Shown here: positions 1,336 to 20,524 of the stretch, piece after piece
How the letters are laid out: each line of letters begins with the position of its first letter
Position numbering within the stretch: position 1 is the stretch's first letter
Virus record (IMG/VR): IMGVR_UViG_3300001097_000006
Span: 1 to 47,159 of that record
Source of the DNA: a virus
Length of the DNA: 47,159 nucleotides
Direction: 5' to 3' (one strand)
Notes under the pieces: generated by a model
Told to the model about the DNA's origin: nothing
Databases searched by the model: none
The model's input: only the letters and a program-made list of their open reading frames with translations
Made by a program: the position numbers and the translations under genes

Positions 1336-2651
1336 ATGAAAGAAAATAAAAACTATACCACCCCAGTAGGTCGTAAAACTAGAGTACTTGTAGTACCTAG
1401 TGACCGTACTGGGGTGGGCTAATTGGTCACTTTAGGTCTATAGGGCCACACATCGCATTAGAAAATCAATATCCAGATGAGTTCATGATAGATATTGATT
1501 TTGAACCAAATTTAAATGATGATAATTTCTTAAAACAATATGATATAATTCATTATCATAGAACTATTGGTGATTACGCTCAAATGGAATCACTTAATGT
1601 TAAACTTAAAGATTTAGGTATTATATCGATAATGGATTTGGATGATCATTGGGCACCTGGTGTTCACCACCCAGCTTACCATCTAATTAAACAACACAAA
1701 TTGGATGAAAAGATATTAAACAACATTAAATTAGCTCAAAACGTAACAACAACTACACCTATTTTTGCTGAGGAAATTTCAAAATACAATAAAAATGTTT
1801 TTATCTTACCTAATGCCATAGATCCAACTGAAACACAATTTATACCTAACTTAGAACCGTCTAATGGACGACTTAGAATTGGTTGGTTAGGTGGTAGTAG
1901 TCATTTAGTTGATCTACAAATACTTAAAGGTATTGTTGGTAGACTTAAAAGTGATGGTTTGATCGATAAGGTACAATTTGTACTATGTGGTTTTGATATT
2001 AGAGGGACACATACGCAAATAAACCAAGACACTGGTGAACAAATAGTAACTAATATTACACCAAAACAAAGTGTTTGGTATCAATATGAGAAACTATTTA
2101 CTGATGATTATAAAACAGTTAGTCCAGAATATAAAGATTATCTAATGACTTTCAAGCAAGATGATTTTGTTGGTGTTGAAAACGAACCATACCGTAGAGT
2201 TTGGACCAAACCGATTTCAACATATGCGTCTAACTATAATCTTTTTGACGTATCTTTAGCTCCTATTGAAGAAAATATTTTTAATAAGGTTAAAAGTCAA
2301 TTAAAAGTTATTGAAGCTGGTTTTCACCATAAAGCAATTATTGCCCAAAATTATGGTCCATATAAAATTGATTTAATTAACGCTATTGATTTCGGTGGGG
2401 TTATTAATCAATCAGCTAATGGTATACTAATTGATACACTTAAAAACCATAAAGATTGGTATTCAGCTATTAAAAAGTTAATTAAAAATCCAGATTTAGT
2501 TAAAACTCTTCAAGATAATTTACATGAAACAATTAAAGATACTTATTCTATGAATAAAGTCACTGAAAATAGACGAAATTTGTATTTAGATTTGATTAAT
2601 AAAAGTAAAGTTATTTCAGTTACAAATGAAACTGAAAAGGTTATGAACTAA
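1336..2651 (+). CDS. GT-B glycosyltransferase, reading frame interrupted near N-terminus
   Basis: The body of this gene is open from 1404 to 2651. Its most downstream plausible ATG is at 1485, but the family N-terminus lies upstream. From the ATG at 1336 the frame reads 28 residues ending RVLVVPSDRTGVG, then meets TAA at 1420. The rest of the motif, HFRSIGPHIALE, resumes at 1428 in another frame. Joined, this gives about 435 residues. The C-terminal half has a GT-B donor domain with GRLRIGWLGGSSH and a KVIEAG run, typical of GT4/GT1-type enzymes. The interruption may be programmed bypassing, a frameshift, or a mutation or assembly error. Glycine codons ggg and ggc at the break are rare in this genome, which prefers ggt. 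The promoter is not clear; a TATAATTG-like box lies near 1300. Confidence 0.7.
1358..1431 (+). other. Nested GC-rich inverted repeats at the glycosyltransferase frame break
   Basis: CCACCCCAGTA at 1358-1368 pairs with TACTGGGGTGG at 1407-1417. Inside it GGTC (1369-1372) pairs with GACC (1402-1405), and ACTAG plus GTAC (1378-1387, one bulged A) pair with GTAC and CTAGT (1393-1401). The hairpin ends at the base of the glycine codon that precedes the TAA. A competing stem pairs AGTGACC (1399-1405) with GGTCACT (1425-1431), looping out the stop. The GC content is far above that of the surroundings. All of it lies inside a conserved coding motif. Confidence 0.8.
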
Positions 2652-4137: not shown

Positions 4138-5787
4138 ATGATAAGTGTAGTCTGTTCTTCACAATACCCATTAGATGAGTTTAAAAAACATGTGATAAAA
4201 ACATCTGGTTTACATAATAAAATAGAGTTTTTAGGTTATGAAAATAAAGGTGAATATTCGTTAACTGAAATATATAATCGTGGGTTAAAAGATAGTAAAA
4301 ATGATATTGTTGTATTTTTACACCATGATTTAACTATTGAAACTAAACAATGGGGTAATAAATTATTAAAACAATTCACGAAAAACCCAGAATTCAGTAT
4401 AATTGGTGTTGCTGGTGGTAAAAACATGCCAGTATCTGGTCAATGGTGGGAATCAAAAAAACAAATGTGTGGTAGAGTTTCACATACACATGAAGGTAAA
4501 ACTTGGTTATCCTCATACTCAGACGATATGGGTGTTGGGTTAACCGAAGTAGTGGTTGTTGATGGGGTGTTTTTTGCTGTTGATAAAACAAAGATAAAAT
4601 CTACCTTCAATGAAGATGTTAAAGGGTTTCACTTTTATGATATGACATTTTGTTTTGAAAATTATCTTAATGATTGCAAGATAGGTGTTTCAACATTAAT
4701 TAGAATTAATCATCAATCAATTGGTCAAACTAACGAATCTTGGGAGAATAATAGGGTTTTATTTGCTGAAAAATTTAAAGATAATTTACCAGTAAACATT
4801 AAACGTGTATTAATTAAAGGTGAAAAATTAAAAGTTTTAATTGGTTGTTTAAGTTTCGCAAATTATACTGGATCTGAATTGTATGTTTTTGAGTTAGCTA
4901 AACAATTAATTAAAGAAGGGTGTGAGGTTTCAATATCTTCAACGATAGGTAACCCTCTAGCTAGTGCAGCTAAAGCTATTGGTATTAAACTATATACTTT
5001 ACAAGAACCACCAGGTTTTAAATTGGGTGACGGTAAATGGTTATTAAAAACAACCAATGGCGATATTGAATCCCAACTAAACACACTTTATAAGGTTAAT
5101 GATGTTAATTTTGATGTGATTCATCTGAACCATAAACCAGTAACTGAACATTTGTTGCGGCTTTACCCAGACACACCAGCTGTATGTTCAATACATTCAG
5201 AAGTTATAGCTCTTGAGGATCCAGTTATTTCTGAACAAATTAAAAAGTATATTGCTATACGACCAGAGATTAAAGATTATCTTGTTTCTAATTTTAATAT
5301 CCCAACTGAAATAGTCGATGTAATTTATAACCCAATTGATAATGATAAATTTAAATTGGTTGGTAATCGTGTTAAAGTGGATAAAAAACGTATTTTATTT
5401 GTTGGAACGATAGATTATCTAAGAAAAAATACGATTAAATCTTTGATTGATACAACTAAAGAAAATGGTGATGAACTTTGGATTGTTGGTAAAAAAAATG
5501 AAGAATATTTAGATGGTATGATGATAAATCAAACACATGTTAAGTATTTCGAACCAACGTATAATATTGAACACTACATCCATCAATGTGATGAAACCGC
5601 TGGTATCCTTCTTGGTCGAACAACTATTGAGGGTTGGTTATGTGGTAAGAAGGGTTGGATATATGTTGTTGATAATATTGGGAACATTTTATCTAAAAAA
5701 CTACATGGTATACCTATTGATATTGATAAATTTAAATGTGATAACGTTACTAAAGAAATAATTAGTATTTATAAATCTTTAATTTAA
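4138..5787 (+). CDS. Two-domain glycosyltransferase (GT2-like plus GT4-like fusion)
   Basis: 549 residues. The first 220 look like a GT-A, family 2 type transferase domain: an opening MISVVCSSQYP strand, then SLTEIYNRGL and DIVVFLHHDL (the DxD-like metal site region), and later VVVDGVFFAV and HFYDMTFCF. From about residue 230 a GT-B fold begins: KVLIGCLSFANYTGSELYVF, NxDVIHLNH, then a GT4-like donor half with RILFVGTIDYLRKN and ELWIVG. The usual GT4 EAxxxG donor signature is replaced by TTIEGWLCGKKG. Two transferases in one chain suggest that consecutive sugars are added. It lies downstream of dut and six bases from the next gene. Confidence 0.8.
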   Translation: MISVVCSSQYPLDEFKKHVIKTSGLHNKIEFLGYENKGEYSLTEIYNRGLKDSKNDIVVFLHHDLTIETKQWGNKLLKQFTKNPEFSIIGVAGGKNMPVSGQWWESKKQMCGRVSHTHEGKTWLSSYSDDMGVGLTEVVVVDGVFFAVDKTKIKSTFNEDVKGFHFYDMTFCFENYLNDCKIGVSTLIRINHQSIGQTNESWENNRVLFAEKFKDNLPVNIKRVLIKGEKLKVLIGCLSFANYTGSELYVFELAKQLIKEGCEVSISSTIGNPLASAAKAIGIKLYTLQEPPGFKLGDGKWLLKTTNGDIESQLNTLYKVNDVNFDVIHLNHKPVTEHLLRLYPDTPAVCSIHSEVIALEDPVISEQIKKYIAIRPEIKDYLVSNFNIPTEIVDVIYNPIDNDKFKLVGNRVKVDKKRILFVGTIDYLRKNTIKSLIDTTKENGDELWIVGKKNEEYLDGMMINQTHVKYFEPTYNIEHYIHQCDETAGILLGRTTIEGWLCGKKGWIYVVDNIGNILSKKLHGIPIDIDKFKCDNVTKEIISIYKSLI

Positions 5788-5792
5788 GTTTT

Positions 5793-6740
5793 ATGATTAG
5801 ATGGTTAAAAAATAAAATTGCGATGTTATCTTTTGCATTTGGTAGTGTTGAGAAAAATGCTTTAAATCAAAACGGTGGTGTGTTAACTGAAAAAGCTGGT
5901 GAAGAACGAAGAGTTAACCAAGGGACCTTAGCTGATGATCTTAAACAAGGTATAATTTCGCAAGAGGTTAAAGATTTGCGTTGGAGAACATATAAAGTAA
6001 TGAAAGCAGCTGAAGGATTTTCATCTAGTATTATTGGTTACGATAAAGATGGTTTTCCAATTACTAATTCTAAAAAAAAAAATAAAAATATTGGTTTAAA
6101 TAAAATTAAAATTGATGGGTTTGACACATATAGTGTTCAACTAGTTGTTGATAATTCTGAAATAACCGCAGATAGCAAAACAGTAATTAATAATGATATG
6201 ATTGATATGTTTGATCAGTGTGTTATTAATTATGATAATAATGGCGAGGTTTTATCAGCTACGCACGGTGAGATTACTGGTGAAGAATATTTTGCAACAA
6301 CAAAACCTACTTTCCCTATTATTATAACAAGGGATAGTATTTCTAAATTTGATATTGAACAATACACTAAGAAAATGGTTGTTAGGTCTGTAAGTGATAC
6401 AATAAAATTATTGGAATTTTATGTTAGTAAATACCCAGATGAATACAATCGTACCTCAAGGCTTTTTATTAGTGATATAAAAAAAGCTATTATTGAACCA
6501 AGTAAATCAACAATTCTACAATTTAATGAAGTTAATTTTATTTCAAATAAAACACTAGGTACTTATGACTTAATGGAGTATAAATATAAAATACTTTCTT
6601 TTGATAAGATCATTGATTTCAATGGCCATTATGTTATCAAATTTTTATCTGAAGTAATTATTGATGGTGGTGATATAGTTAATCAATATCGTGAAGAAAT
6701 GTTAGAAGAAAGGTATAAAAATAAAACTGAAAAAAAATGA
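5793..6740 (+). CDS. Conserved hypothetical phage protein
   Basis: A 315-residue protein I do not recognise. It opens with MIRWLKNKIAMLSFAF, an amphipathic stretch, followed by a charged region with Asn, Gln and Gly runs. After about residue 110 it has mixed alpha/beta character. There is no catalytic motif. It overlaps the following glycosyltransferase by four bases (ATGA), so it belongs to the sugar operon by position. By its N-terminal style it could instead be a virion or assembly protein captured within that operon. Confidence 0.65.
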   Translation: MIRWLKNKIAMLSFAFGSVEKNALNQNGGVLTEKAGEERRVNQGTLADDLKQGIISQEVKDLRWRTYKVMKAAEGFSSSIIGYDKDGFPITNSKKKNKNIGLNKIKIDGFDTYSVQLVVDNSEITADSKTVINNDMIDMFDQCVINYDNNGEVLSATHGEITGEEYFATTKPTFPIIITRDSISKFDIEQYTKKMVVRSVSDTIKLLEFYVSKYPDEYNRTSRLFISDIKKAIIEPSKSTILQFNEVNFISNKTLGTYDLMEYKYKILSFDKIIDFNGHYVIKFLSEVIIDGGDIVNQYREEMLEERYKNKTEKK

Positions 6741-7396
6741 AACTATTAATTAAATTCCCAACTAGAAATAGACCAGAAAAATTTTTATCTGTATTAGATA
6801 AATACATTAATTTCTTAGATGATAAAACAACAAAAATTATAGTCAGCTGTGACTCAGATGATATTACCATGAATAATGATTTTATTAAAGACGTTATTGG
6901 GCAATACGAAAATGTTTTATTATGTTATGGTGAAAATAAAACAAAGATTCAAGCGGTTAACGCTGATATATCTGATGATGATTTTGATGTTATTTTATTA
7001 GCTTCTGATGATATGATACCAGTTATTAAGGGTTATGATTTAATTATAAAAGAAAAGATGTTAGAAAAATATCCAGATACTGATGGTGTATTATGGTTTA
7101 ATGATGGTTATCAAGGTGATAACCTAAATACTCTTTGTATATTAGGTGTGAAATATTATAATAGATTTGGGTATATTTATAATCCAGAATATATTTCTGT
7201 GTGGTGTGATAATGAATTTATGGATGTGGCCAATATATTGGGTAAGCAAACGTATTTCAATAATACAATAATTAAACATGAACATCCAGATTATGGTCAT
7301 GGTGTTAGGGATTTGGTTCATTCATTAAATTCTAAATACGAGTCTACTGATAAAAATACTTATAATAAAAGGAAATTAATAAATTTTGAAATATGA
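6737..7396 (+). CDS. GT2-like glycosyltransferase (GT-A fold)
   Basis: A 219-residue protein. It starts MKLLIKFPTRNRPEKF, the first strand and loop of family 2 transferases, followed by KIIVSCDSDD and DVILLASDDMIP, where the acidic cluster fits the nucleotide-sugar and metal site. A late HEHPDYGHG segment supplies histidines. It is shorter than typical 250-300 residue enzymes. It is translationally coupled on both sides by four-base overlaps. The donor and acceptor cannot be told from sequence. Confidence 0.75.
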   Translation: MKLLIKFPTRNRPEKFLSVLDKYINFLDDKTTKIIVSCDSDDITMNNDFIKDVIGQYENVLLCYGENKTKIQAVNADISDDDFDVILLASDDMIPVIKGYDLIIKEKMLEKYPDTDGVLWFNDGYQGDNLNTLCILGVKYYNRFGYIYNPEYISVWCDNEFMDVANILGKQTYFNNTIIKHEHPDYGHGVRDLVHSLNSKYESTDKNTYNKRKLINFEI

Positions 7397-8226
7397 TAAC
7401 AGCATTTAACACAATGTTTAAAAATGAAGAAAAATTATTAGGTGAGGTATTAAAAATTTGGAAAGAATACCCTATTGATTTATTCATTTTTTATGATGAT
7501 AATTCAACCGATAATTCAATTAATGTTATAAGTGAACATTTAAATGAATTTAGGTATATAATTATTAATGATAAACTTATTAACTTTAATGAAGGTTATC
7601 AAAGACAGAGAATGATTGAAGTGTCTAGGCAAATGGATGTTGATATTGTTTTTTCTCTTGATTGTGATGAATTATTATCAGCTAATATTATTAGTGATTG
7701 GAATAAATTTTTAGGTGTTTATGAAACTACAGATATGTTATTATATTGGTATAATTCAGTTGGATCTTTAACTAAACACCGTAACGATCCACAATATGTT
7801 AATAATTATAGGAGTTTTGTTTTACCGTTAAAGTATTGTGGGGATTTAAATAAAGATGAACATAAATACCATACCCCAAGAACACCATATGTTAATCTAC
7901 CTAAAACTTATACTAGTGAATATGGTGTGATTCATTTACAATCTATTAATAAGAAATTTTATGCTATTAAACAATTATGGTATAAACATTATGAATTTGT
8001 TAATTATGGTCACTCAGTTGAGGAGATCAATCATAGGTATGATAATGTTGTTAATAATTTTAATTTTAATGAAGTTGTAACACCATATAATATAGTTGAA
8101 GGTATTACATTTAATATTGATATTTTTGATGAATTAGAAAAAGAAAAAGGATATTATGATTTTATACGTCATAATTATAATGAAGAATTAATAACATTTG
8201 GAAAAGAATATTTATTATGGGTTTAA
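7393..8226 (+). CDS. GT2/GT92-like glycosyltransferase
   Basis: 277 residues. The opening MITAFNTMFKNEEKLLGEV matches the NExxxL start of family 2 enzymes, and FYDDNSTDNS is the classic second motif. VDIVFSLDCDELL gives a D-x-D-E metal-binding site. Downstream VIHLQSINKKF and YKHYEF runs are typical of small phage and capsule enzymes of this group. The gene overlaps its neighbours by 4 and 10 bases. A cytoplasmic enzyme with unknown donor. Confidence 0.8.
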   Translation: MITAFNTMFKNEEKLLGEVLKIWKEYPIDLFIFYDDNSTDNSINVISEHLNEFRYIIINDKLINFNEGYQRQRMIEVSRQMDVDIVFSLDCDELLSANIISDWNKFLGVYETTDMLLYWYNSVGSLTKHRNDPQYVNNYRSFVLPLKYCGDLNKDEHKYHTPRTPYVNLPKTYTSEYGVIHLQSINKKFYAIKQLWYKHYEFVNYGHSVEEINHRYDNVVNNFNFNEVVTPYNIVEGITFNIDIFDELEKEKGYYDFIRHNYNEELITFGKEYLLWV

Positions 8227-8960
8227 CTATTGGTATTACAACGTTTTCAAAAAGGTTTGAGTTAGTTAGTGAGTTAATTAAACAAATAAGGTATATTAAT
8301 AAAACCGATAAGATTTTATTATGTATAAATGGTGAAAAAGATGGTGATTTTGATGATAACTATAGGGAAAAAATACTAAAACTATGTATTAGTTACCCTA
8401 ATGTATACCCAACTTTTTTTATTGAAATTAGAGGATTGAGTAAAATGTGGAACACATTAATTGTAAACTCGGATAAAGAGAATATTTTATTATTAAACGA
8501 TGATTTAGTAATAACTGATAGAACTATTTTCGACCAAATTAATAACCATATTAACTCAGATAAATTTAATGGGTTCACTAGGATAAACCAGTCATTTTCA
8601 CATTTTTTAGTAAATAAAGATGTTATCGATAATTTAGGATACTTCGATGAAAGATTATTAGGTTTTGGAGAGGAAGATGGTGATATATATTATCGTTGTA
8701 TTAAAAAAGGTGTTAATATAGTTGACATTAATGTTAATGGTTTCAACAATCTGATATCAAATATACGACATGATGAAGTTAAAAATGGTATCGGAAAATA
8801 TTCTAAATTTAATCGAGATTTTATCTATTCATCAAAATATCAAACTGATATGTTAAGCCCATATAAAGGAATGTTTGATACCCCAATGAAACAGATAATT
8901 GAGGATATTAAGTTGTACCCATATGAAAAGTTCTTTAACGAAAATAAATCTGAGTTATAA
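8217..8960 (+). CDS. GT2-like glycosyltransferase
   Basis: 247 residues. It opens MGLTIGITTFSKRFELV, with a central LSKMWNTLI and NILLLNDDLVI acidic site, then NLGYFDERLLGFGEEDGDIYYRC. The last is the family 2 acceptor-side motif in which the ED pair lies near the catalytic base (ED-x-D form). The C-terminal 60 residues are charged and unassigned. It begins inside the preceding gene (10-base overlap) and ends one base into the next start (TAATG). Confidence 0.8.
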   Translation: MGLTIGITTFSKRFELVSELIKQIRYINKTDKILLCINGEKDGDFDDNYREKILKLCISYPNVYPTFFIEIRGLSKMWNTLIVNSDKENILLLNDDLVITDRTIFDQINNHINSDKFNGFTRINQSFSHFLVNKDVIDNLGYFDERLLGFGEEDGDIYYRCIKKGVNIVDINVNGFNNLISNIRHDEVKNGIGKYSKFNRDFIYSSKYQTDMLSPYKGMFDTPMKQIIEDIKLYPYEKFFNENKSEL

Positions 8961-10186
8961 TGGAAATTAACGGATTAGATGGTAGTATAAAGTTTAAGTT
9001 ATTTGATGAAGATAAAAATGGTCGTGAAATAAATATCTACACCCTACAAAATGTTATTGCGACAGGTGAATCGCTTTTATATCCAAATATACTTTTTTTT
9101 TGTGATAAAACTAAATCTAGTTTGGTTAGTCCTTTAGATGAAAAAATAATGTCATTAGAAAATATTACTAAAATAACTGATTTTAGTGATGAAAAACTAC
9201 TTAATTTAGGTGAAAATATGGATATTGAAGTTAATCCAGTGTTTTTTTTCATCTATAATACTGAGAATTATTATCATTTCGTTTATGACACACTACCATA
9301 TTTAATTTCGTATTTTGAGTTAAAAAAAACTAACCCAAAACTTAAATTGTTAATGAGTTTACCTAATTCTAATAAAGTATCATTTTATCAGTTCGTCATT
9401 GAATTACTAATTATTAACGGAATTGAAGACGATGATATATTAATGGTTAACCCAAATACTCTGTATAAAAATGTGTTTGTATCTAATTCATATACACACG
9501 GTATCGATTCTAACCTACAACCAAGATATGAAGTTAATTATTTATATGAAAGTATTGTAAATAAGGTAAAAAATAATAAGGTTTACCCTAAAAATATTTA
9601 TATATCTAGGAGAAGTTGGATTCATGGTGATGTCACTAATATTGGAACAAATTATACAAATAGGCGTAAATTAATTAATGAGGATGAATTAGTTTCAACA
9701 CTAGAAGAACATGGTTTTATTGAAGTTTTTACTGAAACTATGAGTATGGTTGATAAAATTAATTTATTTGCTAATGCTGATAACATTATCGGACCAATAG
9801 GTGGTGGGTTAGTTAATGTGTTGTTTTCTAAATCAGACTGTAATTTAATAGCTATAATATCACCAGAATTTTTAAATATTAATAAAAGGTTTATTTTTTC
9901 ATTTAATTGTGTAACTTTAAATATGTTCGAAGATGTTGAACATGTTGAAAAAACTGAGTTTAAATTATATATGAGAGTTGAAGTTGATAATATTGTGGGT
10001 GAGATAATTGAGATAACTGGAGATAAGTGTAAAATATTATATAGTGACACCTCTGTTTCTGGTTGGAATAGTGAAAGTGACTATAACCAAAAAGAATGTT
10101 ATCTTTCGGATTGTGTAAAATTGGATAACGGTTTAAATTCATCATGGGTAATTGATTTGGATAAATTTAAAGAAAAATACTTATGA
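8960..10186 (+). CDS. GT61-family glycosyltransferase
   Basis: 408 residues. The signature of GT61 (DUF563) is clear: an N-terminal YNTENYYHFVYDTLP segment, YISRRSW near residue 215, KLINEDELVSTLEEHGF, and the donor-side NIIGPIGGGLVNVLFS. The family includes xylosyl- and GlcNAc-transferases of GT-B type. The usual domain ends near residue 330. A further 75 residues, with short beta-like strands and a DNIVGEIIEI run, resemble a small SH3-like appendage and are unassigned. The gene is four bases overlapped with its successor. Confidence 0.85.
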   Translation: MEINGLDGSIKFKLFDEDKNGREINIYTLQNVIATGESLLYPNILFFCDKTKSSLVSPLDEKIMSLENITKITDFSDEKLLNLGENMDIEVNPVFFFIYNTENYYHFVYDTLPYLISYFELKKTNPKLKLLMSLPNSNKVSFYQFVIELLIINGIEDDDILMVNPNTLYKNVFVSNSYTHGIDSNLQPRYEVNYLYESIVNKVKNNKVYPKNIYISRRSWIHGDVTNIGTNYTNRRKLINEDELVSTLEEHGFIEVFTETMSMVDKINLFANADNIIGPIGGGLVNVLFSKSDCNLIAIISPEFLNINKRFIFSFNCVTLNMFEDVEHVEKTEFKLYMRVEVDNIVGEIIEITGDKCKILYSDTSVSGWNSESDYNQKECYLSDCVKLDNGLNSSWVIDLDKFKEKYL

Positions 10187-10992
10187 TTAATTATATTATT
10201 TACAGCCATACATCATATTTAGATGTATTAAATATTCAGAGTGACCATATGGGAAATTATGAAAACACTACATTATTTATCAATACTAATAATGATGATA
10301 ATATTGGTCAAATTTATGATAAGTTCAATCGAGTTATATTTTATGATGATTTACAACCATACGCAAAGCGTTTAATTGAATGTATTGAACAAATTGACGA
10401 TAAATATTTCTTACTTATTCACGATATTGATATTTTATTATATGTTGATGAAGAATTAATCTTAAAATTATATGATTTTATTGAATATAAATGTATTGAT
10501 AGGATTGATTTAAAACAAGCACCCAACTTGAATTCAATTGAAGTAATTAAATTTGGTCACGACATACCAATCGATAAGATGGTATCAACACTACCTTCTG
10601 AAATTATTGATGGTACATATCTAATTAAACAAGAAATTCCAGAGGATTACATTTACAATGTTAATCCATCAATATGGAATAGAGAATCTTTTTTAACGTT
10701 ACTTAATCTTTTCCCAAATAAAACTTATCGTGACATTGAAGGAATGGATGTTCAAAGATATTCCACTAATTTATTGATATATAAATTATTTTCGTTAAAA
10801 CCAATTAAATGTGGTTATTTTGAGTGTTTAGATCTATTTAAATTTTTACATATAAGCCATAGTGGGAAATTATTGTTACTTAATGAAAAATATGAAACAG
10901 AATATGGTCAATCATACTTAGATATTGGTAATGAATATTTAAATATAGTTAATAAGTATAATCTTAATACATCAGATAAATGGGTAAATTAA
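10183..10992 (+). CDS. Glycosyltransferase-like protein, paralogue A
   Basis: 269 residues. It shares a whole-length pattern with the 260-residue protein at 11905-12687: NYxIYSH at the start, FYDxxxxYxxxL, LxHDIDIL (a D-x-D site), YIYNVNPSIWxRE, and FKFLHISHS near the end. The family is not one I can name. The DIDIL site and the operon context suggest a GT-A type transferase. The two copies flank the exostosin-like gene, pointing to duplication followed by divergence. Confidence 0.6.
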   Translation: MINYIIYSHTSYLDVLNIQSDHMGNYENTTLFINTNNDDNIGQIYDKFNRVIFYDDLQPYAKRLIECIEQIDDKYFLLIHDIDILLYVDEELILKLYDFIEYKCIDRIDLKQAPNLNSIEVIKFGHDIPIDKMVSTLPSEIIDGTYLIKQEIPEDYIYNVNPSIWNRESFLTLLNLFPNKTYRDIEGMDVQRYSTNLLIYKLFSLKPIKCGYFECLDLFKFLHISHSGKLLLLNEKYETEYGQSYLDIGNEYLNIVNKYNLNTSDKWVN

Positions 10993-10993
10993 T

Positions 10994-11908
10994 ATGAGTT
11001 TAGAAGAAATCAAAAACTGTAAATACATTTCAAGTGTTGGAATGTTAAAAAGATTGGATGAAAATGAAATAATAACATACGATGCTGCGCCAGATAAAAT
11101 AACCCATAACTTCAATAAGTTATTAAACGGTAAAAACGGCTCAATTATATATATTAAATTTGCATTTATTAGGCAATTCATATATCAAGTACTACCAAGT
11201 ATAAATTATAATTTTATATTAGTAACTGGTGATGGTGACGAAACAATGCCAAATGACATATTTGACCAAAACACATTTAATTCTATAATTAATGATACTA
11301 GGTTAATACATTGGTATTCTGTTAATTGTAATGAAGAATTACATACAAAATTTTCGTTAATACCTATTGGTGTTAATTTTCATTCGTTATCTTATGGTGA
11401 ATTTTGTGGGTGGAATGAAACAGCTCTAACTCCGTTAGAACAAGAAAATATAATTGAAAATATAAAAAATAATTCGTTACCGTTCTATGAACGAAAAGTA
11501 ATGTGTTATTCTAATTTTCATTTTCTAATACATAACGAATTTGGGAACCCTAGACAATCAGCTATTGATAATGTACCTAAAGATTTAGTTTATTATGAGC
11601 CAGTATTTAAACCAAGATTAGAATCTTGGGAAACACAATCAGAATACGCATTTGTGCTTTCACCTATGGGACATGGGATGGATTGTCACAGAACTTGGGA
11701 AGCGTTAATTTTAGGTTGCATACCAGTTGTTAAAAAGTCACAATTGGATAGCTTATATGAAGGTTTACCCGTATTAATTGTTGATGAATGGTGTGATATA
11801 ACTGAAAAACTGTTATTTGAAACTATTGAGAAATTCAAAAATATGGATTTTGATTATGATAGAATAACTGCTGAATACTGGGTGAATAAAATAAAAAACC
11901 TTAAATGA
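10994..11908 (+). CDS. Exostosin-like (GT47-type) glycosyltransferase
   Basis: 304 residues. The C-terminal half carries FVLSPMGHGMDCHRTWEAL, then LGCIPVVKKSQLDSLYEGLP and a final LIVDEWCDI. This arrangement (HGxDCHRTWEAL followed by a CIPVV strand) is characteristic of exostosin-type and related GT-B transferases in phage and algal-virus genomes. The first 100 residues are divergent. It starts one base after the preceding stop and is coupled by ATGA to the following gene. Donor unknown. Confidence 0.75.
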   Translation: MSLEEIKNCKYISSVGMLKRLDENEIITYDAAPDKITHNFNKLLNGKNGSIIYIKFAFIRQFIYQVLPSINYNFILVTGDGDETMPNDIFDQNTFNSIINDTRLIHWYSVNCNEELHTKFSLIPIGVNFHSLSYGEFCGWNETALTPLEQENIIENIKNNSLPFYERKVMCYSNFHFLIHNEFGNPRQSAIDNVPKDLVYYEPVFKPRLESWETQSEYAFVLSPMGHGMDCHRTWEALILGCIPVVKKSQLDSLYEGLPVLIVDEWCDITEKLLFETIEKFKNMDFDYDRITAEYWVNKIKNLK

Positions 11909-12687
11909 TAGATTATAAAGTACATAAACATATAACTAAAAATAGTGATGGTGTAATAAATTACATGATTTACAGTCATAGTACATTCATAGATATATTA
12001 AAAATTCAAATTGATTACATTTCTGGAAATGGTCATTTAACACTATGTATTGATAAAAATGATTTAGATTTAGAACATATATATAATAAGTTTGATAATG
12101 TAGTATTTTATGATAGTAACCAAACCTATGGTCAAAAACTACTAAGTTGTATAAAACAAGTTGATCATGAATACATTTTATTAATGCATGATATTGATAT
12201 ATTATATGACATCGATAAAACAAAGGTGCTAGAACTTCAGAACTTTCTAATAGAAAATAAATATGATAGAGTAGATTTTCAATTAGCTTATGATTTTGAT
12301 AGCACACATTACGATACTATAAATGATGATGATTTATATCTAATTAAATCATCAAATACAGATACTAGAAATAAGGGTTATATTTATAATGTAAACCCAT
12401 CAATATGGAAACGAGAAACGTTAGAAACGATATTAGATAAGTTTAGTCATTTAGACTATAGAACTATCGAACAAGATAGTGTCCAAGAATTTTCATCTCA
12501 GTTCAATATTTTTAAATTATATTCTAAAGTCAGATATAATTGTGGGTATTTTACGTGTTTAGCACCTTTTAAATATTTACATATAACACACAGTAGAGTA
12601 TTATTTAACCCTAATACTTTACCCACAGAAGATAGTAAAGATGTTATTGATGAATATAATAAAATAATAAAAAAATATAATTTATAA
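11905..12687 (+). CDS. Glycosyltransferase-like protein, paralogue B
   Basis: 260 residues, homologous throughout to the protein at 10183-10992 (shared LMHDIDIL, YIYNVNPSIWKRE and FKYLHITHS). It has about 15 extra residues at its start before the common NYMIYSH. Retention of the acidic DID site in both copies suggests that both are functional rather than decaying. ATGA-coupled to the exostosin-like gene upstream. Confidence 0.6.
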   Translation: MIDYKVHKHITKNSDGVINYMIYSHSTFIDILKIQIDYISGNGHLTLCIDKNDLDLEHIYNKFDNVVFYDSNQTYGQKLLSCIKQVDHEYILLMHDIDILYDIDKTKVLELQNFLIENKYDRVDFQLAYDFDSTHYDTINDDDLYLIKSSNTDTRNKGYIYNVNPSIWKRETLETILDKFSHLDYRTIEQDSVQEFSSQFNIFKLYSKVRYNCGYFTCLAPFKYLHITHSRVLFNPNTLPTEDSKDVIDEYNKIIKKYNL

Positions 12688-12692
12688 AAATA

Positions 12693-13469
12693 ATGGATAA
12701 TAATAAACCAGTGTTCATAATTGCACATAAATATTTTAGAGGATATGATAGTTATGTTGAATATTACATAAATAACATTAGAGAGTTCTATGAGGATTCA
12801 TTGATTATTGTTGTTGATAACAATTCAATATATAAAGACGATATTTTTAATAACTTAAAGAAATATGATAATGTCATATTGTTAGATAATAACATTGAGT
12901 GTAAATTTGAATTAGGTGCCTACCAAGTCGGTGTTAAATATTTGATTGATAATGACTTATTAGATAAATACACTTATGTTGTTATGACGCAAGATAATTT
13001 TATTATTAAAAATAAATTAGATTTCAATCAATTATCTGAAGCTAACGTAAAGGCTTGTCCATTAAATGGGTGTGACCAAAATGTTGATTCACCAGAATAT
13101 TTTAACATACAACAAAGTTGTACTGATGTTTCAATACCAGTTCTAGATAAATTAGGGTTAAACGATAATTGGGATAAAATTTCATTTTGTTGGTGCAATA
13201 GTTTCATTTTATCAACAGATAAGTTGTTACAGATGTATGGGTATCTGCAACAAATAGTAATTAAAATTAGATGGGAAAGTTGTGCATCTGAAAGATATTT
13301 AGCTAGATTACTGTGGGAATTAAATGATAATGTAAATTATGATATTGATGGTGATATTAGAGACTTAAAACATAAATACGACTGTTGGAATGTAGATTTA
13401 AGTGTACCTCAACTAACATTTTTCGTTAAAAAATTACAACAAAAAGATGAAAGAACCTTGGATCAATGA
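12693..13469 (+). CDS. GT-A type glycosyltransferase-like protein
   Basis: 258 residues. It starts PVFIIAHKYFRGYDSYVEYY, then DSLIIVVDNNS (the VDNNS motif of family 2 transferases) and YVVMTQDNFII at the position of the metal site. A WCNSFILSTDKLL segment and a SCASERYLARLLWEL helix follow. The fold looks like GT-A but the subfamily is not clear. It begins five bases after the previous stop and overlaps the next gene by four bases. Confidence 0.65.
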   Translation: MDNNKPVFIIAHKYFRGYDSYVEYYINNIREFYEDSLIIVVDNNSIYKDDIFNNLKKYDNVILLDNNIECKFELGAYQVGVKYLIDNDLLDKYTYVVMTQDNFIIKNKLDFNQLSEANVKACPLNGCDQNVDSPEYFNIQQSCTDVSIPVLDKLGLNDNWDKISFCWCNSFILSTDKLLQMYGYLQQIVIKIRWESCASERYLARLLWELNDNVNYDIDGDIRDLKHKYDCWNVDLSVPQLTFFVKKLQQKDERTLDQ

Positions 13470-14362
13470 TATTAGAAAGTGTAAATAATGGTTTCATATA
13501 TTATAATAATAATCAAGTGATACACACTAAGGTATATTACGATTATTGTGTTAATTTATTAATTAGTTGGTTAAATAATAGTGGTGAATACGTAAATATA
13601 ATTTTTGGTGATTATGATATAAACTTAAATAATAATTTTAAAGTTATTAGATTAGATATACAAGTTGAGCACACATTAGTTAAAGATGGCGGTAGAGGTA
13701 TTAATGAACGTATATATGGCACAACTAATACTGATAATGGTGACTTATACTTAGTTAGGATTGATAAATTTAAATATTATAATTCATTGGATTATGTTAT
13801 TGAATATAGTTACCCTAATACCCATAATATTAAATCTTCTGGTTATTTTTCTGAATTTTCAAGTAAAATAATTAATATTTCACCATTGATTTATGAACCA
13901 AACTTTGATAATATTAATAAAGTTAGTACAATAACTTTATTTACCGAAAACTCCAGTCAACGTAGGGATAATATAACCAAAGAATTAGATGATAAAAGTG
14001 TTGAGTATATAAATATAGTTAATTGTTTTTCTTACAATGATTTAGTCAATCAATATAGTAATACTAAGATTATGGTTAATGTTCACCAAACTGATCATCA
14101 TCATACTTTTGAGGAATTAAGAGTGTTACCAGCACTAATTAATGGTGTTATAATAATTAGTGAGAATGTTCCTTTAAAGGAACATATACCATATAATGAA
14201 TTTATAATATGGTGTGAATATGATAAATTAGTTGACACTATCATTGACGTTCAAAAAAATTATGTTAGTTATTATGATAAACTATTTAATAATGAATTAA
14301 ATAGTTTATTATTAACATTAAAAGAAACTAATTATAAAAACTTAAATCTATTAAACAAATGA
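13466..14362 (+). CDS. GT-B-like glycosyltransferase
   Basis: 298 residues. The C-terminal half reads KIMVNVHQTDHHHTFEELRVLPAL, then GVIIISENVPLKEHIPYN, matching the donor-binding end of GT-B capsule and phage transferases, where the EELR helix plays the role of the E-x7-E motif. The N-terminal acceptor half is divergent. ATGA-coupled on both sides. Donor and acceptor unknown. Confidence 0.65.
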   Translation: MILESVNNGFIYYNNNQVIHTKVYYDYCVNLLISWLNNSGEYVNIIFGDYDINLNNNFKVIRLDIQVEHTLVKDGGRGINERIYGTTNTDNGDLYLVRIDKFKYYNSLDYVIEYSYPNTHNIKSSGYFSEFSSKIINISPLIYEPNFDNINKVSTITLFTENSSQRRDNITKELDDKSVEYINIVNCFSYNDLVNQYSNTKIMVNVHQTDHHHTFEELRVLPALINGVIIISENVPLKEHIPYNEFIIWCEYDKLVDTIIDVQKNYVSYYDKLFNNELNSLLLTLKETNYKNLNLLNK

Positions 14363-15816
14363 AAGTCGCATTATTAATATCTGGGTATTTAAGAAGTTAC
14401 GATATCAATCTTAAATTTATTGAAAATGAGATATTCAATAAATTTGAACATGTTGATGTTTTCCTTCATATCACCAATAATGAAAGAAAGGAAGATAAGT
14501 ATATCAATTCAGTCAGTGACGAAGAAGCTATTAATAATTTTACAGCTGCTTTAAACCCATTAAGAACTATTATTGAAAGTAACGCACACTACTATGATGA
14601 TAGTAACCTTAACGATCTTATTAATCAATGGAGTAAACTTTCTAAATTAAATGATTTAAAAAAAAAACATGAAGAAATTAATGGTGAAAAATATGATTTA
14701 GTTATTAGGTATCGACCAGATTTAACCATCAACGATAAGGGTATATTTAGTGATTTAATTAAAGGGGTAATTTCTATACCAAGTAATAGTAAAATCGATA
14801 ACACTAAATTACGTAATCCAACTGATTTACATATATGTGATGCTTTAGCTTTTGGTGATTCTACGTCTATGGATAAATATTTTAGTATCTATGAACACAT
14901 ATTAGATTTGGTTTACGAATATGGTTATGTTTCAGAAACGATACTATATTGGTATTTAACTAAAAATAAAATAAACTATAACGTTGTTGATATTGATTAC
15001 GGTTTCACATTATCTAAATGTAATGTATTTGCTATTGCTGGTGACTCTGGTTCTGGTAAAAGTACCTTAGGTGAATTACTTAAGGGAACTTTTACTAATT
15101 CTTTTATGTTAGAGTGTGACAGGTACCACAGATGGGAACGTGGTGATAAAAATTGGGATAATGTAACCCATCTAAATCCAAGTGCTAATTATATTACAAA
15201 GATGAGTGAAGATATATTTAATTTGAAATTAGGTAAAGATATTTACCAAGTTGATTATGATCATCACAGCGGTAAATTTACTGATAAACAAATTATTAAT
15301 TCATCAGATAATATAATTGTTTGTGGTCTTCATAGTTTATATACTGATTCTATTTACGATCTAAAGATATTTATTGATACTGAAGATAAACTTAAAAAAA
15401 AATGGAAAATAAGACGTGACGTTATAGACAGAGGTTATTCAATTCAAAAAGTGTTAGATAGTATAGAAAAACGTGAAAGTGATTTTAATGAATTCATAGC
15501 ACCACAAAAGGATAGTGCTGATCTGATAATTAAATTTTTTAGTCTAGATAAAATTGATTTTAACGACTACAATAAACCAGAACGATTAAGTCTTGAGTTG
15601 ACAATTAATGAAAAATTTAACCTTACTGAAATATTAGCTAGATTAGATGAAATTGGTGTTGAATATTTTATTAAAAAGGGTAATTGTTTTAATAAAATAA
15701 TTTTTAACGAATATAATAACTTGGTCTTATTTAAAGACGATAAAATTCCAAGAACCAATACATTTTATGATTATATTATGTATTTTATTTTTAATTTAGT
15801 CTTTACAAATAAATAA
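14359..15816 (+). CDS. Fusion of glycosyltransferase-like domain and uridine-kinase-like domain
   Basis: 485 residues. Residues 1-215 start MKVALLISGYLRSYD and contain YDLVIRYRPDL, a pattern found in capsule and phage transferase-like proteins. From residue 222 a P-loop kinase begins: FAIAGDSGSGKST (P-loop 228-236), then ECDRYHRWERGD, DYDHHSGKFT, NIIVCGLHSLY and an RRDVIDRGYS lid. This is the phosphoribulokinase/uridine-kinase layout. The final 90 residues are an unassigned tail. The likely role is phosphorylation of a nucleoside or sugar linked to the transferase half. It is the last tightly coupled gene of this run; a 23-base gap follows. Confidence 0.75.
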   Translation: MKVALLISGYLRSYDINLKFIENEIFNKFEHVDVFLHITNNERKEDKYINSVSDEEAINNFTAALNPLRTIIESNAHYYDDSNLNDLINQWSKLSKLNDLKKKHEEINGEKYDLVIRYRPDLTINDKGIFSDLIKGVISIPSNSKIDNTKLRNPTDLHICDALAFGDSTSMDKYFSIYEHILDLVYEYGYVSETILYWYLTKNKINYNVVDIDYGFTLSKCNVFAIAGDSGSGKSTLGELLKGTFTNSFMLECDRYHRWERGDKNWDNVTHLNPSANYITKMSEDIFNLKLGKDIYQVDYDHHSGKFTDKQIINSSDNIIVCGLHSLYTDSIYDLKIFIDTEDKLKKKWKIRRDVIDRGYSIQKVLDSIEKRESDFNEFIAPQKDSADLIIKFFSLDKIDFNDYNKPERLSLELTINEKFNLTEILARLDEIGVEYFIKKGNCFNKIIFNEYNNLVLFKDDKIPRTNTFYDYIMYFIFNLVFTNK

Positions 15817-15839
15817 ATTTTAATTATTTTTAAATAAAA

Positions 15840-16517
15840 ATGGGTAAAATCTCGTCAAATTTATTAAAATTAGCTTCGAATGTTTCGAAATACTGTGTTG
15901 GTATGGAGGGAAATATATCTGGACTTGTTGAAGATGGATCAATTCTAATAAAGGCTAGTGGGTCAAATTTGTCTAAATTAACCGAACATGATTTAATACC
16001 ATTTGATATAGATGGAAATCAAATTGGTAAAATGGATAAACGTGGTAGTATTGAATTAAGTTTCCATTTATTTCTTTTAGGTTTTGAGGGTATAAATTAT
16101 ATCTCCCATACTCACCCTATTAATAGTTTAAGGATTTTATGTGGTAATTATATCACAAAACAATTATTTAGTACCCGTAGGTTATTTCCAGACCAAGTAA
16201 TATTTAATGGTAAAGAATCTTGTTTAGTCCCATATGCTAAACCTGGTAAAGAATTAACTAATAAAATCAAAGAAAAAGTTAATTATTTTATTGATAAAAA
16301 TGGGTGTTTCCCAAAATTAATATTGTTGGAAAATCACGGTATTATTAGTTGTGGTAAAACAATTGAGGAATGTATTATAATTAATGATATATGTGAAAAA
16401 TCAGCTGATATTTTTAATGGTAACGAAATAAATGATTTAACTTTTTTAACCAGTGAAAATATTAATGAGTTAATTATAGATAAAGGTGAGGAATACAGAC
16501 AAAATTTAGTAAAATGA
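15840..16517 (+). CDS. Class II aldolase/adducin family protein
   Basis: 225 residues. The fold and catalytic set of fuculose-1-phosphate-type aldolases are present: EGNIS at 23-27, KASGSNL (38-44), SIELSFH with Glu72 as the likely catalytic acid, zinc ligands His90 and His92 in SHTHP, and His166 in ENHG. The family cleaves or forms sugar phosphates by zinc-assisted retro-aldol chemistry; some members are decarboxylases or dehydratases (MtnB). In this operon it may make or remove a sugar-phosphate precursor. Overlaps the next gene by four bases. Confidence 0.85.
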   Translation: MGKISSNLLKLASNVSKYCVGMEGNISGLVEDGSILIKASGSNLSKLTEHDLIPFDIDGNQIGKMDKRGSIELSFHLFLLGFEGINYISHTHPINSLRILCGNYITKQLFSTRRLFPDQVIFNGKESCLVPYAKPGKELTNKIKEKVNYFIDKNGCFPKLILLENHGIISCGKTIEECIIINDICEKSADIFNGNEINDLTFLTSENINELIIDKGEEYRQNLVK

Positions 16518-17284
16518 AATCAACAGGTATAAGTTTAGGTTGGAACTGTTCAGCGGCACAAGACGGGTTAAGGATGGGGTTAAGGGGTGTAAAATCAGAT
16601 GGATATAAAACATGCCCATTTGATATGATGATAAGTAACTATCTTGGTATGTGTGAATGTATTAAAGATGATTTTAAATATTTTTGTGACCCTAAATATT
16701 TAGTGTTAAGGGATGCACCAGACATGTCAATGCATTTTCCAAATCAAAAGGAGGGTGAAAAATGGATATATAATACTTATTATGATTTTACGTTTAATCA
16801 TGAATCACCATATCATGGAAATTTATATCTTAATGAACAATGGAGTGGGGCAAACCATTTTGTTGATAACAATTATGAAAACTTTATTAAAAGGTATGAA
16901 ACTAGAATAAAGGCGTTTATGTTTTACATTAATTCTGGTGAGTTTATTAATTTTGTCTTATGGAGATATAACGCAATTCCTCATGAGTTAGAAACAATAA
17001 TTAAAGATAAATATCCAAACTTAAGATTCAACATTAATTCGATCATTGATTTTGGACCACACACACTTAACGCTTTGATAAATAATAATCCAGAAGCCGC
17101 AAAGTCACAAGAAATCGATTATTTAAAATATATGAATGTACCACATTCAGAATATGATAGATATTATTCTGAACATATAAATAAATTTGATGAAACAAAT
17201 AAAGACGTTAAGGTTACTGAGAATATAACTTTAATTGAACCAAAAAATAATAAATTTTTAAATGACCCGAATTATTTACGTTGA
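16514..17284 (+). CDS. DUF1796 family protein
   Basis: 256 residues. It opens with STGISLGWNCSAAQDGLRMGL and continues CPFDMMISN, the SLGxNC...FD signature of DUF1796 (sometimes called putative cysteine-peptidase-like, also found in poxviruses and giant viruses). Cys12, with later His residues such as those of the MHFPN and FNHE segments, could form an active site, but no activity is established. It sits in the sugar operon, overlapping the aldolase gene by four bases and the HAD gene by 23. Confidence 0.75.
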   Translation: MKSTGISLGWNCSAAQDGLRMGLRGVKSDGYKTCPFDMMISNYLGMCECIKDDFKYFCDPKYLVLRDAPDMSMHFPNQKEGEKWIYNTYYDFTFNHESPYHGNLYLNEQWSGANHFVDNNYENFIKRYETRIKAFMFYINSGEFINFVLWRYNAIPHELETIIKDKYPNLRFNINSIIDFGPHTLNALINNNPEAAKSQEIDYLKYMNVPHSEYDRYYSEHINKFDETNKDVKVTENITLIEPKNNKFLNDPNYLR

Positions 17285-17558
17285 TATAGACGAAACAATA
17301 TGTGTGACACCTTCACCAAGGAATTACCATAACGCTAAACCATTAATTGAAAATATTGCAAAAATAAATAAATTATATGATGAAGGTAATACAATTGTTT
17401 ACTGGACTGCTCGTGGGAGTCGAACACAAATTGATTGGTATAAACTAACTAAATTACAATTAGATGAATGGGGTGCCAAACATCATGAATTAAATGTAAA
17501 TAAACCATATTATGATTTATTTATAGACGATAAAACACTTAGAATTGAAGAAATTTAA
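17262..17558 (+). CDS. Small HAD-superfamily phosphatase (capsule-type)
   Basis: 98 residues. It contains the HAD motifs: YVDIDET with Asp8 nucleophile and Asp10 acid, WTAR with Thr49, Lys81 after the NVNKPYYD turn, and FIDDK (Asp89-Asp90). There is no cap domain. Small enzymes like this dephosphorylate sugar phosphates in capsule and lipopolysaccharide precursor pathways. That fits the aldolase and nucleotidyltransferase nearby. Its start lies within the DUF1796 gene. Overlaps the next gene by 14 bases. Confidence 0.85.
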   Translation: MTRIIYVDIDETICVTPSPRNYHNAKPLIENIAKINKLYDEGNTIVYWTARGSRTQIDWYKLTKLQLDEWGAKHHELNVNKPYYDLFIDDKTLRIEEI

Positions 17559-18477
17559 TAAAATTATACTATTACCACCAAATATTTCTTTTGGCGATTC
17601 TATGTCTGTTATTGGGTTGGTTTATTATTTATTAGAATATTACGAGACAGTATATTTTTATATCGGTCCAACTTATATTAACGGATATACAATATCGGAC
17701 AGAACAATAAACGATGTTACAAATTATATTACAGAGTTTTTTAAAAACGATAAATTATTTAATGATCAAATCAACATAATATCAAATGTTGAGAAATTAA
17801 TTAATGAAGGTGTGTATGGTGAATACCATGTATGTAATACATTAACTGGTGATTGGTCTGAACCAAATAGAACATTTATTAATTTACCAAACATTGATAA
17901 AGGTTATTATTTTAATGATGAAAACCCAATATTTAATAAATTACCGATTCCAGATAACCACAAATGTTCACCAAATAAACATTTACCATCCACAAGTATT
18001 CAAACTAATCATTTATTCTACTATGAGTTGGTTGGGTTAAATAATACTGTTAGTATGGAATTTTTTAATTATGTTAGGGATGTATCTAGTGAACAAACAC
18101 TTAAATTATTAACATTAGAAAAATATTATATTATTAATGATAAATATAATATAGTCAATGACCCAATAGATATGTCTGATAGAATAAAACCATTTATTTT
18201 AAATGATTACCCAATAATAAATATTAATCACTTATCAAGCAACCCTTGTAACTTGATTACTTTATTGGAGGGTGCGGAAAGTATTCATTTTATTGAAGGG
18301 TCTAATGTTAATTTTTTTTACCACGCTCAACATAAAAATATTTTTAAATATGATAAATTAATTACATTTCATATCTGGGCTTGGAATAGAAACTGGCCAA
18401 GTCCATCTATGAACCTAGATTATGCTTGGACCATGATGAATACACCAAAATTAAATAACTGGATTTTTAAATTTTAA
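17545..18477 (+). CDS. Glycosyltransferase-like protein (GT-B type suspected)
   Basis: 310 residues beginning at a TTG at 17545, inside the HAD gene; no upstream ATG is available. The first strand and loop KIILLPPNISFGDSMS matches GT9-like N-termini, where a glycine-rich loop follows the first strand. Near the end NPCNLITLLEGAESIHFIEGSNVNFFYHAQ resembles the GT9/GT-B donor half, in which the segment ending EGS holds the nucleotide. The middle is divergent. Confidence in the class is low. Confidence 0.55.
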   Translation: MKKFNKIILLPPNISFGDSMSVIGLVYYLLEYYETVYFYIGPTYINGYTISDRTINDVTNYITEFFKNDKLFNDQINIISNVEKLINEGVYGEYHVCNTLTGDWSEPNRTFINLPNIDKGYYFNDENPIFNKLPIPDNHKCSPNKHLPSTSIQTNHLFYYELVGLNNTVSMEFFNYVRDVSSEQTLKLLTLEKYYIINDKYNIVNDPIDMSDRIKPFILNDYPIININHLSSNPCNLITLLEGAESIHFIEGSNVNFFYHAQHKNIFKYDKLITFHIWAWNRNWPSPSMNLDYAWTMMNTPKLNNWIFKF

Positions 18478-18482
18478 ATATA

Positions 18483-18962
18483 ATGAAAATAATATCACAC
18501 AGAGGAAATATTGTTGGACCAAACGCAAGTCGTGAAAATAAACCATCTTATATTGATACAGCAATTTCAGCTGGTTTTGATGTGGAAGTAGATATTACTT
18601 TCAATAATGGTAAATTCTATCTTGGTCATGATACACCAGATTATGAGATTACTGAAAAATGGGTATCCAGTAGAAAAGATAAGTTATGGTTACACTGTAA
18701 AAATTTGGATGCCGCAACTAGGTTACATGAATTAGGTGATTCCCATCAATTTTTCTGTCATTCTTCAGATTCTTATGTTTTATGTAGTAATGGTAAAACA
18801 TGGGTTCATGATTTAAAACTTAATATTTCTAAAACAACCATAATACCTCTTTTAAGTTATGAGGATGTAAATAATTATAATGGGTTAATACCCTATGCTA
18901 TATGTACTGATTTTGTTTCATTTGCTGAATATAGTTTAAATCAAAAAGGATTATATAAATGA
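18483..18962 (+). CDS. GDPD-like (PLC-type) phosphodiesterase
   Basis: 159 residues. MKIISHRGN carries His5-Arg-like residues of the TIM-barrel glycerophosphodiester phosphodiesterase family (HR pair at 6-7). GFDVEVDI gives the Glu35/Asp37 metal ligands, and LGHD at 48-50 the second catalytic His. It is far shorter than the usual 230-300 residues, so the barrel is truncated. The same short form occurs in phage and capsule clusters and may act on phosphodiester-linked sugar or lipid head groups. Overlaps the next gene by four bases. Confidence 0.75.
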   Translation: MKIISHRGNIVGPNASRENKPSYIDTAISAGFDVEVDITFNNGKFYLGHDTPDYEITEKWVSSRKDKLWLHCKNLDAATRLHELGDSHQFFCHSSDSYVLCSNGKTWVHDLKLNISKTTIIPLLSYEDVNNYNGLIPYAICTDFVSFAEYSLNQKGLYK

Positions 18963-20524
18963 CTAATAAACCACAAATAATAATACCTATGTCTGGTATT
19001 GGTAAACGATTTATTGATGCTGGGTATAGTGTACCTAAACCACTAATTGAAGTCGATGGTTTACCGATAATCGAACATGTGGTAAACCTTTTCGGTAGAC
19101 CTAATGATGTTATTTTTATATGTAACGAGAATCATATTAAAGAAACAAACATGGTTGAGGTACTTAAAAGAATATCACCTAACTGTAAAATTTACCCAGT
19201 GTCAAATGATAATCGATGTGGTCCAGTAGATGCAGTTTTAAAAATATCAGATGAAATTGATGATGACAGAGAAGTAATTGTTAGCTATTGTGATTATGGG
19301 ACTGTATGGGATTATGAATTATTTATTAAAGAAACTAGAAAATATAATTCTGATGGTGCAATTTCATGTTATACTGGGTTTCACCCTCACATGTTAGGTT
19401 CTGATAATTATGCTTTTGTTAAAGTTAATGGATCAAAAGCGACCGATATTCAAGAGAAGAAACCATTTACCGATAACAAAATGAACGAATTAGCGTCTAA
19501 CGGTACTTATTACTTTAAAAATGGTTCAATAGTTAAAAAATATTTTAGTTTATTAGTTGATAAAGAAATGGATATTAACGGTGAATATTATGTTAGTTTA
19601 GTTTATAAACTTTTAATTGAAAATAAACTTTTAGTTACAACATTTATTATAAATAAAATGTTACAATGGGGAACACCGTATGACTTGGAAGTTTATAATA
19701 GTTGGTCAAATTATTTTAAAAATATTAAAACAAAACAACCAATAGTTAAAAACCCAAAAGGTACGACATTAATATTACCAATGGCTGGTAAAGGTAGTCG
19801 ATTCGCTAAAGAAGGTTATTTGTTACCTAAACCATTACTTGACGTTGATGGAAAATCAATGATAATACAAGCAGTAAATTGTTTACCAGAATGTGATGAA
19901 AATACTTTTATTTGTCTATCGGACCATATTGATAAATTTAATATTTATGATACGATTAAACAAAATTATTCTAACGCCAAAATAGTTGGTATTGATGATA
20001 CAACTGATGGGCAAGCTTGTACTTGTGAGATAGGTATATTGGTTAATAATATTGATTTAGAAAAACCAATATTAATTTCTGCGTGTGATAACGGAGTTTA
20101 CTACGATACAAAAAAATATGAAGAAATGGTTAACGATGAGAGTATTGATGTTATCGTATGGTCTTTTAGAAATAACCAATCCAGTAAAACTAACCCAAAT
20201 GCCTATGCTTGGTTAGACGTGGATGATGAAGGTTTTGTTAAACATGTGTCTTGTAAAAATTTTATATATGATGACCCATTGACAACACATGCGATAATTG
20301 GTACAATGTTTTTTAGGTTAGGGCGGTTTTTTTATGATGGGTTATTAAAAAACTACGAAGAAAATATTAAAACAAACGGGGAATTTTATGTTGATGATGT
20401 ATTAAACCAAAATATAAAAGATGGGTTAAAAATTAAGGTTTTCGAAGTTGAAAACTATATTTGTTGGGGGACACCTAATGATTATAAAACTTATAACTAT
20501 TGGTTAGATCATTTCACAAAATAA
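18959..20524 (+). CDS. Tandem sugar-phosphate nucleotidyltransferase
   Basis: 521 residues made of two homologous halves. Each begins with the nucleotidyltransferase signature: MSGIGKRFIDAGYSVPKPLI at the N-terminus and MAGKGSRFAKEGYLLPKPLL at about residue 275. Each half also has a CDYG or CDNG strand-end at the metal site and ends with GTPxDxxxYxxW. Such enzymes transfer NMP from NTP to a sugar 1-phosphate. Duplication within one chain is unusual; the two halves could use different sugars or one could be regulatory. Both keep the GxGxRF...KP core. This is the last gene of the sugar operon. Confidence 0.9.
   Translation: MTNKPQIIIPMSGIGKRFIDAGYSVPKPLIEVDGLPIIEHVVNLFGRPNDVIFICNENHIKETNMVEVLKRISPNCKIYPVSNDNRCGPVDAVLKISDEIDDDREVIVSYCDYGTVWDYELFIKETRKYNSDGAISCYTGFHPHMLGSDNYAFVKVNGSKATDIQEKKPFTDNKMNELASNGTYYFKNGSIVKKYFSLLVDKEMDINGEYYVSLVYKLLIENKLLVTTFIINKMLQWGTPYDLEVYNSWSNYFKNIKTKQPIVKNPKGTTLILPMAGKGSRFAKEGYLLPKPLLDVDGKSMIIQAVNCLPECDENTFICLSDHIDKFNIYDTIKQNYSNAKIVGIDDTTDGQACTCEIGILVNNIDLEKPILISACDNGVYYDTKKYEEMVNDESIDVIVWSFRNNQSSKTNPNAYAWLDVDDEGFVKHVSCKNFIYDDPLTTHAIIGTMFFRLGRFFYDGLLKNYEENIKTNGEFYVDDVLNQNIKDGLKIKVFEVENYICWGTPNDYKTYNYWLDHFTK

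Follow-up and report, generated by a model that had tools for sequence, protein, structure and literature searches.

A glycosyltransferase gene of phages very probably contains a programmed short translational bypass that was left by a mobile homing-endonuclease cassette. This assessment rests on sequence comparison alone, without support from reads, ribosome profiling, proteomics or a reporter. For 37 alleles of the gene, both sides of a break are conserved, from which we infer, without having observed the fusion, that one protein would be made from two segments split by untranslated bases. One of these alleles lies in the window, that is, the whole stretch of DNA analysed (47,159 nucleotides). 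The window is part of a virus record of 65,222 bases, which carries genes for a T4-type capsid, portal and terminase. Flavobacterium phage vB_FspM_immuto is among the nearest named relatives of its capsid, and a Bacteroidota host is inferred.

The ORF starting at 1336 reads MKENKNYTTPVGRKTRVLVVPSDRTGVG and ends with TAA at 1420-1422. The layout of the break at 1417-1430 is GGC / TAATT GGT / CAC. From CAC at 1428, another 407 codons are open (HFRSIGPHIALENQYPDEF...; stop at 2649-2651) in a frame that differs from that of the 1336 ORF. The respective features are as follows.

1259 to 1326, + strand: decayed 3' end of an endonuclease gene (KLYLAK... / GYNCEVVWKSDYRKN, frame broken), from hmmsearch and DNA comparison with L026, L121 and L069
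1336 to 1419, + strand: first coding segment of 28 codons, an N-terminal extension followed by KVLVVPSDRTGVG-type sequence
1358 to 1368, + strand: 5' arm of the outer hairpin stem, CCACCCCAGTA (folding, covariation)
1369 to 1405, + strand: inner helices GGTC/GACC and GTACTTGTAGTAC (folding, covariation)
1407 to 1417, + strand: 3' arm of the outer stem, TACTGGGGTGG, whose last base is the first of the take-off codon (folding, covariation)
1417 to 1419, + strand: putative take-off codon GGC (Gly), from the allele table
1420 to 1427, + strand: coding gap TAATTGGT of 8 nt, with TAA immediately after take-off and the landing codon as its last 3 bases
1425 to 1427, + strand: putative landing codon GGT (Gly), synonymous with the take-off codon, from the allele table
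1428 to 2651, + strand: second glycosyltransferase segment, 407 codons plus stop, PHROG 7162 (similarity searches)

An earlier note on this DNA had claimed a break at GGC/TAA with resumption after GGT, which the sequence confirms at these positions. Its arithmetic for the 8-base gap, as well as for a -1 alternative that adds Leu-Ile-Gly, is correct. It had also called GGC rare in a genome that prefers GGT; the downstream ORF, counted from 1485, indeed uses GGC 0 times and GGT 16 times. The glycosyltransferase has no Pfam family, and the assignment is by matches to PHROG 7162.

Positions 4138-20524 of the window hold a long series of additional glycosyltransferase as well as sugar-nucleotide genes, among them one for a two-domain glycosyltransferase and one for a nucleotidyltransferase. 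Intein/Hint domains are found in both the portal and the terminase gene (37633-41442 and 41775-47135, - strand).

Similarity searches returned at least 424 relatives of the glycosyltransferase in viral contigs, 80 of which were kept for analysis. Most are intact and read M(K)KLKVLVVPSDRTGVSYFRST..., while a large subset is broken at the same place. The homologue comparison proposed by the earlier note thus gave a split outcome, many relatives being without the extra bases and a large subset having the break. Four broken alleles were found by protein similarity, with neither stop nor hairpin required (L005/L006, L009, L077, L111). After hairpin and degenerate-motif scans, the set comprised 37 distinct bypass alleles in phage contigs plus 2 more with TAG. 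All bypass alleles have the extension, which is missing in nearly all intact relatives, and a first segment of 26-29 codons. They read ...SDRTGV[G/S]-stop and then resume the conserved FRS motif. The later scans demanded that a stop follow the take-off position directly and, for the most part, that the take-off codon be of the Gly/AGY type, so these two features are partly given by construction. The landing-codon match was not built into the scans, and the hairpin was not required in part of them. Since the alleles are mutually related, counts overstate their independence. No bypass allele was found in cultured phages, and scanning bacterial and archaeal genomes for the pattern turned up only two hits, both due to chance.

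The gap lengths of the 37 alleles are 6 nt (17 alleles), 8 nt (5), 11 nt (5), 7 nt (3), 5, 12 and 13 nt (2 each) and 9 nt (1); both TAG alleles have a 5-nt gap. All three values of gap length modulo 3 are represented, with 20/37 alleles in frame 0 (6, 9 and 12 nt). Independent of this, the resumed motif is always [Y/F/H/K/S][F/Y]RS with zero extra residues.

We defined the landing triplet solely by its place ahead of the resumed protein motif. In 36/37 alleles, corresponding to 22/23 distinct gap sequences tabulated, it belongs to the codon box of the take-off codon. The exception is L009/L029, where AGA at the landing position does not match the AGC take-off, which counts against bypassing. 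Alleles with a Ser take-off codon land on AGY (8/9) and never on TCN, while the Ser codons of intact genes at the same position are TCN in 18 and AGY in 11 cases (n=29; p about 0.003). This suggests that a single tRNA re-pairs and that constraint on the protein is not the whole reason.

A -1 frameshift at GTG GGC TAA, which would insert Leu-Ile-Gly ahead of HFRS, is very unlikely, although the window's 8-nt allele taken alone would fit it too. The frame arithmetic also suits the other 5-, 8- and 11-nt alleles, and a frameshift could accommodate the unmatched landing triplet of L009/L029. The 7- and 13-nt alleles, however, require the other frame, and those with gaps of 6, 9 or 12 nt stay in frame 0. 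Furthermore, there is no slippery X XXY YYZ heptamer at GGGGTGGGC / GGGGTGGGCTAA, and intact relatives lack the extra residues at this conserved spot.

The two parts might also act separately, i.e., a 28-aa leader terminates and reinitiation makes the rest. Such a split gene would have precedent, as homing endonucleases split other phage genes (PMC2988022). We consider it highly improbable, because no conserved start codon is found near the junction in the resumed frame (the first ATG of the window is 57 nt beyond the junction, past conserved codons) and the matched codons and the variable gap would be left without a role.

Phylogeny bears on the question whether the frame-0 alleles are a separate phenomenon. 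Taken alone, the 6-, 9- and 12-nt alleles, i.e., 20 of the 37, fit stop-codon readthrough too, with unrelated events in the others. This is hardly credible, given that several mechanisms would be needed for one conserved architecture and that alleles with 11- and 12-nt gaps are sisters. That is, L158/L161 (12 nt) cluster with L159/L163 (11 nt) in the tree, with both halves open in all of them, so indels inside the gap are tolerated. Neither frameshifting nor readthrough would allow such gap indels. On the whole tree, the bypass label changes 12 times, with at least 6 changes forced by well-supported branches. There is one all-bypass clade, and several bypass alleles stand beside intact sisters. 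This distribution is consistent with repeated gain and loss of the bypass.

Next to the take-off codon, the alleles have an RNA hairpin in common. For the window, the 66 nt ending at GGC fold at -37.6 kcal/mol, while 200 synonymous recodings reach -14.8 +/- 3.7 kcal/mol and none equals the native stability. The hairpin is present in 37/37 alleles, with its 3' arm ending at the end of the take-off codon or a few bases earlier. The mean z across alleles is -5.9 relative to synonymous recodings of each allele's peptide. All 200 recodings are less stable than the native sequence in 36/37 alleles; for L155, one recoding is as stable. Intact genes show no hairpin (mean -6.5 kcal/mol over the same positions). 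Among the 13 window-type alleles, 92.7% of cells are paired, and double changes occur in 8 pairs; all four Watson-Crick forms are seen for the pair at columns 6-63. Their covariation score of 0.263 exceeds those of shuffles (0.131) and of slid partners (0.118 at most). For SPLNGREK-type alleles, fixed-register covariation is weaker but consistent (2 pairs with double changes), since the stems vary little and some loop lengths differ. Rfam gave no match to the hairpin.

At the protein level, the extension peptide is unconserved (pN/pS 0.89), in contrast to the peptide immediately before the stop (pN/pS 0.26). Thus, RNA is what the extension keeps, although 28 residues could still act as a nascent-peptide signal in the exit tunnel. 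We also looked at a 7-bp inverted repeat, AGTGACC/GGTCACT (1399, 1425), which spans the take-off site of the window within 1399-1431. None of the other alleles that were read has this repeat, and it was dropped.

In view of these data, the strong hairpin that the earlier note had seen nearby is real, and its argument that the break is not random holds, since the same break, hairpin and codon match recur across many independent phage contigs. Its bypass reading gains support from gaps of 5-13 nt in all three frames, matched codons and a covarying hairpin, while translation has not been shown experimentally. The simple alternative it had left standing, a random 8-base insertion, cannot explain varied gaps together with matched codons and a covarying hairpin. 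It had not recognised the hairpin as a 5' element that is conserved, nor had it seen the extra segment at the N-terminus or the homing endonuclease.

The ORF after the gap evolves with dN/dS of 0.04-0.13 between related bypass alleles (dS near or above 1 for most pairs, up to about 2). That the gene is simply broken, as a pseudogene or by sequencing error, would agree with the metagenomic origin of the contigs and with the decayed endonuclease adjoining it in the window, but given this purifying selection on open second halves, the conserved pre-stop peptide, the covarying hairpin and an architecture shared by dozens of contigs from different samples, we attach next to no weight to it.

Linkage to an endonuclease is another property that sets bypass alleles apart. 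Directly upstream, 28/38 bypass but only 1/48 intact alleles have an endonuclease gene or remnant (Fisher p about 3e-13, alleles non-independent). In most bypass alleles this is an ORF of about 200-320 aa, or a remnant, and the ORF overlaps the first 14-68 nt of the downstream gene in another frame. It carries a NUMOD3 motif, and there is a match to the I-TevI DNA-binding domain (E 1.5e-4). For its C-terminal part, the predicted fold is nearest to the I-Bth0305I homing-endonuclease domain (3R3P) and Vsr, with a TM of 0.75-0.78 by target length for 3R3P (Foldseek E 1.7e-3, domain level). By fold and DNA-binding modules, the upstream ORF qualifies as a Vsr/I-Bth0305I-type homing endonuclease; that it cuts intact alleles and favours its own inheritance is a conjecture with only the insertion pattern and the scattered distribution behind it. 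The remnant in the window matches positions 268-290 of the endonuclease profile (hmmsearch i-E 1e-4). The lone intact allele with a remnant, L069 (start near 4001), also has the extension, in an uninterrupted frame. It is likely a reverted allele and serves as a control showing that the extension can occur without bypass.

The insertion site can be read from alleles that keep the original 5' end. The DNA of L021 is colinear with that of the intact L008 into the gene up to GTAAGCTACTT. There follow the endonuclease and a diverged second 5' end that has a hairpin and a stop. Next come AGCTACTTCCG and the remainder of the gene, which is nearly identical to L008. Like L021, the alleles L117, L120 and L125 retain a truncated original 5' end ahead of the endonuclease. 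Together, this places the entry of the cassette at the codons where the ribosome would now land, i.e., those for TGV[S/G]-[Y/F]-F.

The same glycosyltransferase gene hosts inteins at two sites, after IGWLGGS and inside NKVK/SQLKVIE. They are seen in L027, L117 and L125 and also in L020 and L021, several of which are bypass alleles. In Tenacibaculum phage PTm1, a DNA polymerase gene is split by an intein, and a related VSR endonuclease (L171, 170250-170492) is located between its two halves.

We propose the following course of events, the first part of which can be read from the sequences. The cassette, made up of the gene for the endonuclease and a second, diverged 5' end of the target gene, was inserted within the glycosyltransferase gene. 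Its replacement 5' end closes with the take-off codon and the stop, and past the gap a same-box codon and the remaining gene follow. In the window, the endonuclease has decayed to a remnant with the bypass retained. The further steps are inferred. A ribosome arriving at GGC would have the stop in its A site, and the peptidyl-tRNA-Gly would let go of its codon. The hairpin is presumed to refold behind the ribosome and to draw the mRNA back, as proposed for the 5' stem-loop of T4 gene 60 (PMC5009743, PMC11194080), such that the tRNA could re-pair with GGT 8 nt downstream. Decoding would then restart at CAC 1428 and yield ...SDRTGVG-HFRSIGPH... with no added residue. The altered junction may shield an occupied allele from the endonuclease. 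Inexact insertion would be tolerated because the inferred hop works over 5-13 nt in any frame. Going further, we lean, with reserve, towards a class of translationally self-healing mobile elements, in which an endonuclease and a replacement 5' segment sit inside a gene and the hairpin of that segment makes the ribosome hop a short distance past the 3' junction whatever the frame, such that insertions in any frame would be harmless and the junction immune to re-cleavage.

T4 gene 60 combines a 50-nt gap, a take-off stem-loop, a nascent peptide signal and a 5' stem-loop and lies near the homing endonuclease gene mobA (PMC5009743, PMC3014915, PMC2988022). Like gene 60, the glycosyltransferase alleles have a stop immediately after the take-off codon, a 5' stem-loop upstream of it and a tie to a homing endonuclease by which a phage gene was split (PMC5009743, PMC3014915, PMC11194080). 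In contrast to gene 60, their gaps are 5-13 nt long and without room for a take-off stem-loop built largely of gap bases, the hairpin ends at the take-off codon, take-off codons are Gly or Ser, and the extension peptide is not conserved (pN/pS 0.89). Gene and endonuclease family also differ, the cassette brings a second copy of the gene's 5' end, and the alleles number in the dozens, where gene 60 is a single case. Synthetic stop-hops (Weiss et al. 1987, cited in PMC5009743) have matched codons around a stop as well (e.g., GGT TAA GGC, 6-nt gap), while the alleles reported here are natural and conserved, with a hairpin and gaps of up to 13 nt. The byps of Magnusiomyces mitochondria (PMC5009743) are likewise short mobile inserts made harmless by bypassing. 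They are mitochondrial and described as apparently independent of mRNA context, whereas the glycosyltransferase bypass has a conserved hairpin, a single target gene and a linked endonuclease. That endonuclease resembles I-Bth0305I/Vsr-type enzymes in catalytic domain fold, NUMOD3 and I-TevI-like DNA-binding region and differs in being free-standing, in overlapping its target gene by 14-68 nt and in its pairing with a bypass.

So far, T4 gene 60 is the sole well-studied programmed bypass in a phage, and counterparts with shorter gaps have long been presumed (PMC5009743). We found no report of this bypass family in the open-access literature (subscription papers were outside the search). The natural allele series with 5-13 nt gaps, different codons and covarying hairpins makes it possible to compare directly what hairpin, codon match and gap length each contribute. 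For annotation, it means that gene callers will truncate or miss genes of this kind. It also connects bypassing with homing endonucleases for a second time, through an unrelated gene and another endonuclease family, such that one can test whether bypassing evolves to neutralise the damage done by mobile elements.
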